DNA from: a virus
Reading direction: 5' to 3' (one strand)
Length of the DNA: 64,000 nucleotides
IMG/VR virus record: IMGVR_UViG_3300031823_000001
Span: 1 to 64,000 of that record
Every line of letters begins with the position of its first letter. Within the stretch, counting starts at the first letter, position 1. The translations under genes and the position numbers were made by a program. Positions 60,670 through 63,935 of this stretch are shown in pieces. Under the pieces are notes generated by a model that was not told where the DNA came from, did not search any database, and saw only the letters and a list, made by a program, of their open reading frames with translations.

Positions 60670-61026
60670 ATGAAGGAAATGAATCTCAGCAAGACGACCG
60701 TGAAGATCATAGATATCTTCCTGGAGGACCCGCAGGCGCCCCGGTACGGGTTCGAGCTGATGAAGCGCATCCACCGGGGCGCCGGCACGGTGTACCCGAT
60801 CCTCGCGGACCTGACGTCAGCCGGATGGCTGGACCGGAACCGGGAGGACGCCGCAGCCCTGGACAGGCCGCCGCGCATCTACTACACGCTCAGCGCCGGG
60901 GCAGCGGCCTACCTGGCCGCCCGGGTCATAGCGATGGCCGGAGACTCAACAGCGGAACACCAGGCGGCCCGAGCCGGAATCGAACCGGCGCCCTACCGCT
61001 TAGGAGGCGGTCGCTCTCTCCCCTGA
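60670..61026 (+). CDS. PadR-like winged-helix regulator, overlapping a tRNA gene
   Basis: 118 residues. PadR-type winged helix: RYGFELMKRIHRGAGTVYPI, LADLTSAGWLDRN, IYYTLSAGAAAYLAA. Short, with no C-terminal dimer helices of the usual form. The last 20 codons run antisense through tRNA-Arg(CCT) (60965-61037), so the real end may be less conserved. Likely controls phage or host genes. Confidence 0.74.
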   Translation: MKEMNLSKTTVKIIDIFLEDPQAPRYGFELMKRIHRGAGTVYPILADLTSAGWLDRNREDAAALDRPPRIYYTLSAGAAAYLAARVIAMAGDSTAEHQAARAGIEPAPYRLGGGRSLP

Positions 61027-61037
61027 GCTACCGGGCC
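60965..61037 (-). tRNA. tRNA-Arg(CCT)
   Basis: 73 bases, stems ACCGC/GCGGT around loop CTCCTAA, T loop TTCGATT. Reads AGG codons. 3' CCA not encoded. Overlaps the PadR-like gene antisense. Confidence 0.9.
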
Positions 61038-61186
61038 ATGAGGTAAGCAGTAATCCATGCGAGCACCGAGACGACGGCAGCGAGAACGCACACCAGTTGG
61101 TACCCGTACATGCCCATGACGGCAGACGTAGCGGCGGAAGCCGACCCGGTGAAGACATAGGACACTACCTGCTGGAGCTTGTTCAC
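61028..61186 (-). CDS. 52-residue membrane protein in the tRNA array
   Basis: GTG at 61186 opens VNKLQQVVSYVFTGSASAAT then a hydrophobic helix (LVCVLAAVVSVLAWITAYLM). Its TAG falls inside tRNA-Arg. No clear ribosome site. Coding is possible but unproven. Confidence 0.4.
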   Translation of the reverse strand: MNKLQQVVSYVFTGSASAATSAVMGMYGYQLVCVLAAVVSVLAWITAYLMAR

Positions 61187-61200
61187 AGTGCTGATCGTAG

Positions 61201-61272
61201 AGGCGGAACGGGGGATCGAACCCCGGTAATGCGCTTTGCAGGCGCATGCCTGAACCACTCGGCCATACCGCC
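61201..61272 (-). tRNA. tRNA-Cys(GCA)
   Basis: 72 bases. Anticodon stem TGCGC/GCGCA with loop CTGCAAA. Acceptor GGCGGTA with 3' partner ending GCCT. T loop TTCGATC. Confidence 0.9.
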
Positions 61273-61412
61273 GTGGGTGCTCCCCCGTCCTATCCGCCAG
61301 GACCGGGGCCCTGGTTTTCCCTTCATCCGGCCATAGCATGTCTGAAAGCTTCGGGGACTGCTCAGGGGGCTGTTGTAACCGGGGTTGGACTACCGGCGAC
61401 CTGGGGTGCACG

Positions 61413-61486
61413 TGCGCCTGGAGGGACTTGAACCCCCGGCCTCGCCCTCCGGAGGGGCGCGCTCTTTCCTGCTGAGCTACGGGCGC
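61413..61486 (-). tRNA. tRNA-Arg(CCG)
   Basis: 74 bases. Loop CTCCGGA in stem CGCCC/GGGCG. One mismatch in the acceptor stem (C6-A67). T loop TTCAAGT. Confidence 0.85.
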
Positions 61487-61490
61487 ATGG

Positions 61491-61574
61491 AGGCGACACC
61501 TGGTGCCGGCCCAGGTCTGTCCGCGAGGACGGCGGATTTACAGTCCGCTGGGCGTGCTGCCGCCCACTGCCGCC
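61491..61574 (-). tRNA. tRNA-Tyr(GTA), class II, odd T loop
   Basis: 84 bases. Acceptor GGCGGCA/TGTCGCC, D stem GGGC/GCCC, anticodon stem GCGGA/TCCGC with loop CTGTAAA, long variable arm (GTCC/GGAC), T stem CCTGG/CCAGG. The T loop is GCCGGCA rather than TTCRANN. CCA follows the discriminator T. Confidence 0.72.
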
Positions 61575-61740
61575 ATTTGGCGCGAGCCCCTGGATTCTGC
61601 CAGGACTCCTCCGGGTGGAACCGGAGCGTGCTGTCCGGGGACGTTATCCATGGTTTCGTCCCCTTCGCATCGAGGTCCCTGTCCAGTCAGGCCCGTGCGC
61701 ACGGACCTGGCCGGAGCCGGCCTCTTACACCAGACTCGCG
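61575..61740. other. Structured spacer in the tRNA array
   Basis: 166 bases without a clear gene. It holds a 37-codon ORF on the minus strand (from ATG 61650, preceded by AAGGGGACG) and hairpins such as AGGTCC...GGACCT. I could not fit a tRNA. Confidence 0.4.
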
Positions 61741-61813
61741 TAGGCAATGACGGACTTGAACCGCCGACCTCTCCGGTGTGAACGGAGCGCTCTTCCAACT
61801 GAGCTAATCGCCC
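61741..61813 (-). tRNA. tRNA-Val(CAC)
   Basis: 73 bases. Loop TTCACAC in stem CTCCG/CGGAG. T loop TTCAAGT. Reads GTG. Confidence 0.88.
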
Positions 61814-61817
61814 TTGG

Positions 61818-61890
61818 GGTGAATGACGAGGCTTGAACTCGCGACCTCCGGTACCACAAACCGGCGCTCTGCCGACTGAGCTACACCCAC
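61818..61890 (-). tRNA. tRNA-His(GTG)
   Basis: 73 bases. Loop TTGTGGT in stem CCGGT/ACCGG. A G at -1 (61891) pairs with C73, the His identity feature. CCA is encoded (61815-61817). Confidence 0.9.
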
Positions 61891-61891
61891 C

Positions 61892-61950
61892 ATGAGGACG
61901 ACGGGGGACTGAGCCCGAAGGCGGTGTCAGCCTGCTCACCTGTCGTCCAG
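61892..61950. other. Structured spacer with 7-bp closing stem
   Basis: Minus strand GGACGAC pairs with GTCGTCC 39 bases away. Inside are TGAGC/GCTCA and AGGC/GCCT with a 7-base loop (TGACACC). Not a tRNA, but clearly foldable. Confidence 0.45.
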
Positions 61951-62023
61951 TGCGGGCGGAGGGACTCGAACCCCCAACACGATGCTCCGTAGGCACCAGC
62001 TCTATCCATTGAGCTACGTCCGC
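61951..62023 (-). tRNA. tRNA-Arg(ACG)
   Basis: 73 bases. Loop CTACGGA in stem GGTGC/GCATC. ACG is normally edited to inosine and reads CGT/CGC. T loop TTCGAGT. Confidence 0.88.
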
Positions 62024-62061
62024 ATTAACGGGGCGGTCCCCAGGTGCCGCCGGGGACCGCT

Positions 62062-62140
62062 AAGAGGAGGCAGGGCTCGAACCTGCAATGCGTGGGCTGG
62101 CATCCCGCGCGCCAACGTCTACCAATTCCGCCACTCCTCA
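62062..62140 (-). tRNA. tRNA-like gene, anticodon uncertain (possibly Pro CGG)
   Basis: D arm GGCGGAATTGGTAGACG is Leu-like, T arm GCAGG/CCTGC with TTCGAGC is normal. The anticodon stem fits TGGCG/TGCCA with loop CGCGGGA, giving CGG at 34-36 and G instead of T at 33. Acceptor is GAGGAG/CTCCTC plus a T-T pair. May be a drifted tRNA. Confidence 0.55.
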
Positions 62141-62144
62141 CCCG

Positions 62145-62217
62145 TGGGCGTACCTGGGATCGAACCAGGGACCTCTTCCGTGTCAGGGAAACGCGCGTTC
62201 CGCTGCGCTACACGCCC
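62145..62217 (-). tRNA. tRNA-Val(GAC)
   Basis: 73 bases. Loop CTGACAC in stem TTTCC/GGAAG. Reads GTC/GTT. T loop TTCGATC. Confidence 0.88.
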
Positions 62218-62218
62218 A

Positions 62219-62299
62219 GATACCGCAGCCTGTTCAGTCTCAGGTCCGTCCCCGGAGGGATGCGAGTCCCGGGCCTAGGCCCGGGAGGTCGCTGCGGCG
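62219..62299. other. tRNA-sized structured region
   Basis: Minus strand: CCGCAGC pairs fully with GCTGCGG over a 75-base span. Inside are CCCGGGCCTAGGCCCGGG (18-base palindrome) and GGGA/TCCC around CTCGCA. No TTCRA loop, so I do not call a tRNA. Confidence 0.45.
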
Positions 62300-62373
62300 C
62301 GGTCGTGACGGGACTCGAACCCGCGATCTCCTCCTTGACAGGGAGGTGAGCACTCCGTCTGCTCTGCACAACC
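62300..62373 (-). tRNA. tRNA-Asp(GTC)
   Basis: 74 bases. Loop CTGTCAA in stem CCTCC/GGAGG. D stem GAGC/GCTC, T loop TTCGAGT. Confidence 0.9.
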
Positions 62374-62450
62374 ATGCCTGCTGCACCTTGGCGTCGGTGC
62401 TTCCCTCCCCGGACGGCCCGGGTGGTGTCGGAGCGTGCAGGACCGCTCGG
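62374..62450. other. Structured spacer
   Basis: Minus strand CTGCAC...GTGCAG closes a hairpin containing CCCGG/CCGGG. No gene seen. Confidence 0.35.
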
Positions 62451-62522
62451 CTCCGGTACCTGGACTCGAACCAGGAGGCGCGGATTAACAGTCCGCTCGT
62501 TTACCGATTAACGGACACCGGA
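62451..62522 (-). tRNA. tRNA-Asn(GTT)
   Basis: 72 bases. Loop CTGTTAA in stem GCGGA/TCCGC. Acceptor TCCGGTG/TACCGGA. T loop TTCGAGT. Confidence 0.9.
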
Positions 62523-62703
62523 ATGGTTCCCCGCTTCCGGTCAGCAGTGCGGGGAGAACTGCGTTCCGAAGACCACCGGGAGCGACCCGGTGCCGACCTT
62601 GCCCTTTCTGAGAGCCGGCCGGGCCAGGGCCGGTGGACGGCCAGGCGGTAGCGTTCTGCCTCCCTTACACCCGGGCGTAAAGGCGCTAGGCCTGTCTCTC
62701 TCG
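62523..62703. other. Structured spacer of 181 bases
   Basis: Several minus-strand hairpins: CACCGGG/CCCGGTG (perfect, 5-base loop), GCAGT/ACTGC, CCTT...AAGG. No ORF or tRNA recognised. Confidence 0.4.
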
Positions 62704-62776
62704 TAGCGGAGGCAGGACTTGAACCTGCGACCTCTGGGTTATGAGCCCAGCGAGCTACCGGCTGCTCCACTCCGCG
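62704..62776 (-). tRNA. Initiator tRNA-fMet(CAT)
   Basis: 73 bases. Loop CTCATAA in stem CTGGG/CCCAG with the three G-C pairs of initiators. C1 faces T72 (unpaired), and A11-T24 in the D stem (GAGC/GCTC) is the initiator sign. T loop TTCAAGT. Confidence 0.88.
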
Positions 62777-62891
62777 TCGTGCTCCCAGGGTATCCCGGGA
62801 GGTATCTGTCTCGCACCTGCGAATTTCAGCCCACCAGTGCAAGCGCCCGGATGCCGTAAGAGGGCCGTCCTCTCGCTCCGGCATCCCCAGG

Positions 62892-62963
62892 TGGCCCCAG
62901 ACGGTTCCGACCCGTCTTCTCCTGCTTGAAAGGCAAGCGGCCTAGCCATTGGCCGATGGGGTC
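62892..62963 (-). tRNA. tRNA-Glu(TTC), odd T loop
   Basis: 72 bases. Loop CTTTCAA in stem CTTGC/GCAGG. T stem GACGG/CCGTC with loop GTCGGAA, lacking T54 and A58. One mismatch (A2-C71) in the acceptor. Confidence 0.78.
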
Positions 62964-62997
62964 TAGAATGTTACTCGCCGAGTCGGCTGACAACACC

Positions 62998-63003
62998 TAT
63001 ACT
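62998..63003 (+). promoter_or_regulatory. -10 box TATACT for leaderless nuclease gene
   Basis: TATACT followed by TAATTC and ATG at 63010 (6 bases). AT-rich surroundings. Confidence 0.55.
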
Positions 63004-63009
63004 TAATTC

Positions 63010-63414
63010 ATGAACACCACCACTCAAGGAGAAATAAGCGAAGGCCACGTCATCGCGCACCTACTGAAGCGCGGCTACGCCGTGTCCATACCATTCGGTA
63101 ACAACCAGCGATATGACCTTGTAATCGATGACGGAAGCCATTTGTGGCGAGCCCAGACAAAAACAGCTCGGCTAGAAAAGGGCTGCCTGGTGTTCAATTG
63201 CAGCAATAACGGATACAAGGGCGTACGCAAGACGTATCAGGGGCAGATCGACCTCTTCCTGATCTACAGCCCACACACAGATAAGGTCTATCGGGTACCC
63301 ATCGAAGCAGCTACTGTCACGTCGATGATGCTGCGTATCGACCCGACCAGGGCAGGGAGCCCCAAGTCACCGAAGCATCCGATCAAGTGGGCTAGCGACT
63401 ACGAGCTGACCTGA
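63010..63414 (+). CDS. PD-(D/E)XK nuclease, I-Ssp6803I-like
   Basis: 134 residues. GEISEGHVIAHLLKRGYAVS, YDLVIDDG, LWRAQTKTARLEKG and QIDLFLIYSPHTDKVYRVP match the I-Ssp6803I-type PD-(D/E)XK group (E..., D in YDLVID, QxK in RAQTK). In cyanobacteria that enzyme belongs to an intron in tRNA-fMet; here it stands alone between tRNA genes, about 230 bases from an initiator tRNA and on the other strand. Lower GC than the array. Leaderless start. Likely a homing gene. Confidence 0.84.
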   Translation: MNTTTQGEISEGHVIAHLLKRGYAVSIPFGNNQRYDLVIDDGSHLWRAQTKTARLEKGCLVFNCSNNGYKGVRKTYQGQIDLFLIYSPHTDKVYRVPIEAATVTSMMLRIDPTRAGSPKSPKHPIKWASDYELT

Positions 63415-63415
63415 G

Positions 63416-63490
63416 TGGTCCCGACGGGATTCGAACCCGTGTCAGTTGGTTGAGAACCAACCATCCTGAACCTGACTAGACGACAGGACC
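63416..63490 (-). tRNA. tRNA-Glu(CTC)
   Basis: 75 bases. Loop TTCTCAA in stem GTTGG/CCAAC. T loop TTCGAAT, acceptor GGTCCTG/CGGGACC. Reads GAG. Confidence 0.9.
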
Positions 63491-63578
63491 ATGTTCCGCA
63501 CGGCTTGACCGACCGCCGGAGAGCACCCGGGGCTAGCAACCGGGTTCACGGGGCCGTCTTTAAGCGCGGCCGTTCAAG
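63491..63578. other. tRNA-like hairpin region, possible Ser(GCT) remnant
   Basis: Minus strand ACCCGG-TTGCTAGCC-CCGGGT looks like an anticodon arm (TTGCTAG would be GCT). No normal T arm or acceptor closes it. May be decayed or a non-tRNA structure. Confidence 0.3.
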
Positions 63579-63651
63579 TGCGCCATGAGGGTCTCGAACC
63601 CTCGGCCAGCCCCTTAGAAGGAGGCTGCTCTGTCCGCTGAGCTAATGGCGC
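63579..63651 (-). tRNA. tRNA-Arg(TCT)
   Basis: 73 bases. Loop CTTCTAA in stem GCCTC/GGGGC. T loop TTCGAGA. Reads AGA/AGG, rare in high-GC hosts. Confidence 0.9.
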
Positions 63652-63660
63652 AGATGCTAG

Positions 63661-63733
63661 TGGGCCGCCAGGGGATCGAACCCTGAACCCGTCGGTTAAA
63701 AGCCGACAACTCTGCCGATTGAGTTAGCGGCCC
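63661..63733 (-). tRNA. tRNA-Lys(TTT)
   Basis: 73 bases. Loop CTTTTAA in stem GTCGG/CCGAC. Acceptor GGGCCGC/GCGGCCC. Confidence 0.9.
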
Positions 63734-63784
63734 GCGATCGGTATTCGCCGGGCCTGTTTCTCGTACATGTTTTCTCCGTCCCGG

Positions 63785-63857
63785 TGGGCCGTGTACGGAT
63801 TGAACGCACGACTCTCACCTTATAAGGGTGCCACTCTTACCACTGAGTTAACGGCCC
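63785..63857 (-). tRNA. tRNA-Ile(TAT)
   Basis: 73 bases. Loop CTTATAA in stem CACC/GGTG (G-A at the outer pair). Acceptor GGGCCGT/ACGGCCC. Reads ATA, for which bacteria usually use a lysidine-modified CAT anticodon. Confidence 0.86.
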
Positions 63858-63862
63858 CTGAG

Positions 63863-63935
63863 TAGCGGTAGAGGGGATCGAACCCCCGACAACCCGATCA
63901 TGAGTCGGGCGCTCTGCCGACTGAGCTACACCGCC
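63863..63935 (-). tRNA. tRNA-Met(CAT), elongator type
   Basis: 73 bases. Loop CTCATGA in stem CCCGA/TCGGG. C11-G24 in the D stem marks an elongator. A lysidine tRNA-Ile2 cannot be excluded from the sequence alone. Confidence 0.82.

Follow-up and report, generated by a model that had tools for sequence, protein, structure and literature searches.

An antisense nuclease gene within a phage tRNA array

The window analysed here is a stretch of 64,000 nucleotides, positions 1 to 64,000 of a 161,740-bp viral record (IMG/VR IMGVR_UViG_3300031823_000001). The portal protein of this phage shares about 38% identity with the portals of Mycobacterium phages Myrna and Phabba and 39% with that of Rhodococcus phage E3. 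When the final 19 kb of the window were compared with the phage collection by megablast, nothing matched. A minus-strand array of 40 tRNA genes occupies positions 60963-68798 of the record; 17 of these genes, spanning 60963-63935, fall within the window, and all window tRNAs are intact. Inside this array, an intact ORF at 63010-63414 on the plus strand encodes a protein of 134 amino acids, a putative free-standing homing endonuclease. Its stop codon (63412-63414) adjoins tRNA-Glu(CTC) (63415-63490, minus strand, called by ARAGORN), the 3' end of which directly abuts the ORF tail to tail. On the other flank lies tRNA-Glu(TTC) (62890-62963, minus strand, ARAGORN). The latter tRNA has an A2-C71 mismatch in its acceptor stem and a covariance score of 44.3, the lowest among the window tRNAs, and may be impaired.

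The sequence-only reading had described the gene as free-standing, antisense and devoid of an intron, in agreement with the opposite strands of the ORF and the tRNAs and with an Rfam scan, in which no group I intron scored above the gathering score at the locus. The same scan result was obtained at L002 and L003, the loci that carry the closest relatives of the gene, and at L022, L154, L156 and L017. That reading had also pointed to an initiator tRNA about 230 bases away. The tRNA-fMet gene (62703-62776, minus strand), with a C-U mismatch at 1:72 (C1-U72) and GGG/CCC in the anticodon stem, is indeed separated from the ORF by 233 bp, but the nearest tRNA genes are tRNA-Glu(TTC) and tRNA-Glu(CTC), and the initiator gene is probably not the insertion partner of the nuclease.

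A putative -10 element, TATACT (62998-63003, plus strand), is positioned 6 nt upstream of the nuclease ATG, and no Shine-Dalgarno sequence precedes this start codon. A TANNNT motif 6-7 nt before the start recurs in L002, L003, two phages related to the window phage (G019 and G008) and Streptomyces phages Navo and Forrest; by chance, such placement is seen at 1.4% of window ATGs. These sequence features suggest that the nuclease transcript is likely leaderless and made from its own promoter, in the direction opposite to that of the tRNA operon.

An IMG/VR search identified 59 related loci. In the array segments of ten relatives, the tRNA order Asn, fMet, Glu-TTC, Glu-CTC, Arg, Lys and onward is conserved with small losses. 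The two tRNA-Glu genes of the window are 451 bp apart, and 405 bp of this gap are the nuclease ORF. Arrays lacking the gene, a check proposed along with the sequence-only reading, were found: the Glu-Glu junction could be read in six relatives, each of which has a spacer of 58-186 bp and no nuclease. These spacers are too diverged to fix the exact insertion borders of the window nuclease. Among 29 relative records, only three carry a PF11645 gene (the family of the window nuclease), two of which, G006 and G008, look like near-copies, and each carries it at a tRNA junction other than that of the window. The G006/G008 gene lies between tRNA-Pro(GGG) and tRNA-Pro(CGG), 3 bp from the latter, and the G019 gene lies between the Asp and Val tRNA genes, 23 bp from Asp. 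Related phages have thus acquired PF11645 genes at three junctions of one conserved array. The window protein is 51-52% identical to those of L002 and L003, which belong to other phages, 39-42% identical to that of G019 and 26-27% identical to that of G008. A stand-alone gene that is present or absent among close relatives at a conserved site is the pattern by which free-standing phage homing endonucleases are recognized, and it is the pattern found here. Divergence of the flanking tRNA-Glu genes was also considered as a sign of co-conversion and was set aside, as these genes are no more diverged than the other tRNAs of the array.

Family, fold and catalytic residues

The ORF product matched PF11645 (PDDEXK_5) with an E-value of 1.1e-29 and 103.6 bits (curated cut-off, 26.1 bits), and the match covers positions 1-137 of the 138-position profile. 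PF11645 was the sole Pfam family above cut-off; in the Pfam scan, the ORF showed neither the GIY-YIG nuclease domain of the SegB family nor a match to the Hjc family. The only solved structure found via sequence was that of I-Ssp6803I (PDB 2OST), with E 2e-4 from the single sequence and E 1.2e-21 from the profile. I-Ssp6803I is an intron-encoded homing endonuclease of a cyanobacterial tRNA-fMet gene.

Structure prediction, named in the sequence-only reading as a check on its assignment to the PD-(D/E)XK nucleases of I-Ssp6803I type, bore that assignment out. The AlphaFold2 model (pLDDT 90, pTM 0.83) had 2OST as its best match both in Foldseek (E 3e-9, TM 0.76) and in the fold comparison (Z 15.6, rmsd 2.4 over 126 residues). 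Residues E11, D36, Q49 and K51 are invariant in the alignment of the first relatives (alignment A2) and align to I-Ssp6803I, so catalytic residues of PD-(D/E)XK type appear, from sequence, to be present. The two proteins share PF11645, the fold, E11, D36, the Q(49)xK(51) motif and a link to tRNA genes, whereas they are about 30% identical and fall into separate clades. Unlike I-Ssp6803I, the window nuclease is not intron-encoded, is antisense to its tRNA neighbours and abuts tRNA-Glu rather than tRNA-fMet.

The fold comparison also bears on two other functions. The second-ranked fold was archaeal Hjc (Z 9.8), and some phage homologues are annotated as Holliday junction resolvases, as might be expected of a housekeeping resolvase or repair nuclease whose location among tRNA genes is incidental. 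We consider this very unlikely, because 2OST is clearly the better match, the gene is missing from most relatives and its placement at tRNA genes is far from random, as described below. Even more improbable is an RNase that processes or cleaves tRNAs and is placed with its substrates. Such an enzyme would fit the position within the tRNA array and the distant likeness of the model to tRNA-splicing endonucleases (Z about 6); however, a Z of 6 is background for this fold, and both the D...QxK motif and the top-ranked structure belong to a DNA endonuclease.

Association of the family with tRNA genes

PF11645 relatives were gathered by sequence, irrespective of genomic context. In 16 of the 20 phage records, the window included, the nuclease lies no more than 100 bp from a tRNA gene, compared with at most 1.8 expected from random placement (P 3.5e-15, a nominal value, as several of the 20 records are related). 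Clustering of the family at 60% identity gave 54 clusters, 41 of which had a tRNA gene no farther than 100 bp away, and many isotypes were represented; the nuclease was on the strand of the tRNA in 40 of these 41, the exception being the window. As a control on loci holding a tRNA, 43 of 48 nucleases were within 100 bp of one, versus 32% of the other small ORFs (240-600 bp) of the same loci (Fisher 3e-14). Together with the profile E-value and the array order conserved in relatives, these placement statistics indicate that the observation is not due to chance. In seven of the 54 clusters, one of them L002/L003, no tRNA was detected in the fetched stretch, and no tRNA lies closer than 3 kb to the nuclease of halovirus HATV-2. 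Part of the association could reflect tRNA regions acting as tolerant insertion zones. In the tRNA arrays of L018, L029 and related Vibrio phages, numerous small ORFs besides the nuclease likewise abut tRNA genes, and some of them may be further tRNA-directed mobile genes.

In many relatives, the 3' end of the nuclease gene touches or overlaps the 5' end of the tRNA. The isotypes abutted are Ser, Tyr, Lys, Thr, Pro, Asp, Gly, Ile, Leu, Cys and elongator-type Met. A partial literature search found no paper describing a PDDEXK_5-tRNA association; a preprint counts 80 PDDEXK_5 genes among huge-phage homing endonucleases, without a link to tRNAs (PMC12363816).

PF11645 genes are also chromosomal. 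Matches occurred in 19 of 400 Chloroflexota genomes. With three I-Ssp6803I-like copies beside tRNA-Met set aside, about 23 loci remain, and in at least 10 of them a tRNA lies within 100 bp of the gene. Several of these free-standing copies share the geometry of the window: the gene ends, with its stop codon, right at the 3' end of an antisense tRNA. Their partners are Lys, elongator-type Met, Thr, Arg and Gly tRNA genes. A displaced tRNA 3' half of the kind left by integrases was not found above shuffles upstream of the tested chromosomal copies. One further match, of 37 residues in a Chloroflexi MAG (L004), was below the PF11645 threshold and was dropped. In a maximum-likelihood tree, the window gene, L002, L003, the antisense chromosomal genes and G019 form one clade (support 97/93) composed mostly of antisense free-standing genes, and a separate clade (100/99) unites I-Ssp6803I with its near relatives. 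The window gene is thus a member of the PF11645 family outside the intron-encoded I-Ssp6803I subgroup. On one bacterial chromosome (L170:1501-2310), an I-Ssp6803I-like PF11645 gene overlaps a group I intron match at 1901-2113, with an intact tRNA-Met 123 bp beyond; L168 and L169 show similar gene-tRNA-Met neighbours.

These data speak to the proposal that the nuclease, like I-Ssp6803I, targets the initiator tRNA-fMet gene and lies near one for that reason. In its favour, tRNA-fMet-like fragments are found at the gene in both closest relatives. In L002 (5940-6430), an antisense tRNA-fMet-like 5' half and 3' half stand on the two sides of the nuclease. ARAGORN missed this split tRNA with introns allowed and called a tRNA-Met(CAT) with a poorly paired acceptor stem from the joined flanks only; it may be a split or decayed gene. 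L003 keeps just the 3' half at the nuclease. From these broken pieces, it is possible that tRNA-fMet was the ancestral target. As a target of the window nuclease itself, the initiator gene is nevertheless unlikely: the ORF abuts tRNA-Glu(CTC), the genome retains an intact tRNA-fMet gene at that short distance, the I-Ssp6803I clade is separate, and the related chromosomal copies abut elongator-type Met and other elongator isotypes. The special tie to initiator tRNA suggested by the sequence-only reading accordingly did not hold up, as relatives abut many isotypes. For the window copy, the tRNA-Glu genes or the spacer between them are the more likely targets.

Occupied and empty alleles, and a proposed route of spread

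One exact occupied/empty pair was found in other phages. Phage phi-pp2 (L022:2941-3494) carries a nuclease and a diverged tRNA-Met in place of the resident tRNA-Met of KVP40 (L090), with identical flanks of about 490 bp before the block and about 320 bp after it. The 465-nt insert and the altered tRNA-Met were already described in the 2012 genome paper, which did not recognize the nuclease (PMC3468402). The phi-pp2 nuclease gene, pp2_314, is annotated as a hypothetical protein and, like the window gene, is a PF11645 nuclease at a tRNA gene. Its exact empty allele is that of KVP40. The two proteins are 28% identical; pp2_314 differs in lying on the strand of its tRNA and in its stop codon, which falls within the anticodon loop of the tRNA-Met linked to it.

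Two further comparisons concern spacers. In Mycobacterium phage Wilder, the nuclease lies between tRNA-Gly and tRNA-Lys, both of which are identical in the nuclease-free GuuelaD, so that these two phages likewise give an occupied and an empty allele with conserved flanks, and in Kuttervirus SM5 it replaces about 200 bp found after tRNA-Asn in S117. As the neighbouring tRNAs are identical within both pairs, the target may be the spacer rather than the tRNA itself. The segment of Salmonella phage S117 that is missing from the nuclease-bearing SM5 (L092:990-1190) resembles, by eye, a broken tRNA-Gln with matching acceptor strands and a T arm; ARAGORN made no call there. Separately, a Klebsiella phage FKP10 record (L019:1073-2625) has a tRNA-Met, a tRNA-Arg and two CDS repeated exactly 1 kb apart near its end, possibly an assembly artefact.

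A functional parallel is T4 SegB, which acts in the tRNA region of its phage and has tRNA-associated homologues (PMC2988022, PMC13096335). Like the window nuclease, it is free-standing in a phage tRNA cluster, patchily distributed and part of a family associated with tRNAs, although it is a GIY-YIG enzyme and belongs to an unrelated family. Cleavage and preferred inheritance are known by experiment for SegB; for the window nuclease, we infer DNA cleavage, a target sequence and active mobility by analogy with SegB and I-Ssp6803I.

The ORF has a foreign composition (GC 54% versus 69% for the window; GC3 0.67 versus 0.86). Overall, the nuclease is likely a horizontally acquired, free-standing, intron-less PDDEXK_5 homing endonuclease specific for tRNA genes or loci, and probably a selfish gene that spreads through cuts in tRNA genes. 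The earlier reading had suggested that the protein may target a tRNA gene and help spread the array; that the nuclease is aimed at tRNA genes and able to spread is probable.

Alternatively, the nuclease might be a domesticated interference enzyme, which keeps other phages out by cutting the tRNA genes of competitors (or those of the host) and has lost homing. It would need the same enzyme and placement, its patchy distribution (3 of 29 relative records) would fit, and SegB-type enzymes have gained phage-benefiting roles in tRNA regions (PMC13096335). We regard this as improbable, since the use of different tRNA junctions by three related phages and a composition unlike that of the genome both fit recent mobility better than long domestication.

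For a homing endonuclease, the following route may be envisaged. The window phage would have gained the gene horizontally, in the gap between its two tRNA-Glu genes and with the 3' end facing that of tRNA-Glu(CTC). The nuclease would be expressed from its own leaderless promoter, and a homo-oligomer would cut DNA at or beside a tRNA gene of a co-infecting relative that has no nuclease. Stems of tRNAs are natural near-palindromes. Recombinational repair would then copy the nuclease and flanking tRNA sequence into the cut array, and the phage's own genome would be spared because the insertion, or a linked diverged tRNA, no longer presents the site.

For the family as a whole, we see an even chance that PF11645 nucleases are tRNA-gene-directed selfish genes of phages, haloviruses and bacterial chromosomes, mostly intron-less, some of which carry a replacement tRNA along and thereby remodel phage arrays, and of which I-Ssp6803I is one specialised branch. 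I-Ssp6803I would thereby gain a free-standing context, and the data suggest a possible function for many phage and bacterial ORFs annotated as hypothetical or as Holliday junction resolvases. The near-isogenic pairs Wilder/GuuelaD (on M. smegmatis mc2 155) and phi-pp2/KVP40, available from public collections, make this reading directly testable. The finding bears on the reasons for which large phages retain, exchange and diversify their long tRNA arrays: if PDDEXK_5 proteins are tRNA-directed homing endonucleases, they would be a second driver of tRNA-array turnover besides the SegB-type GIY-YIG enzymes.
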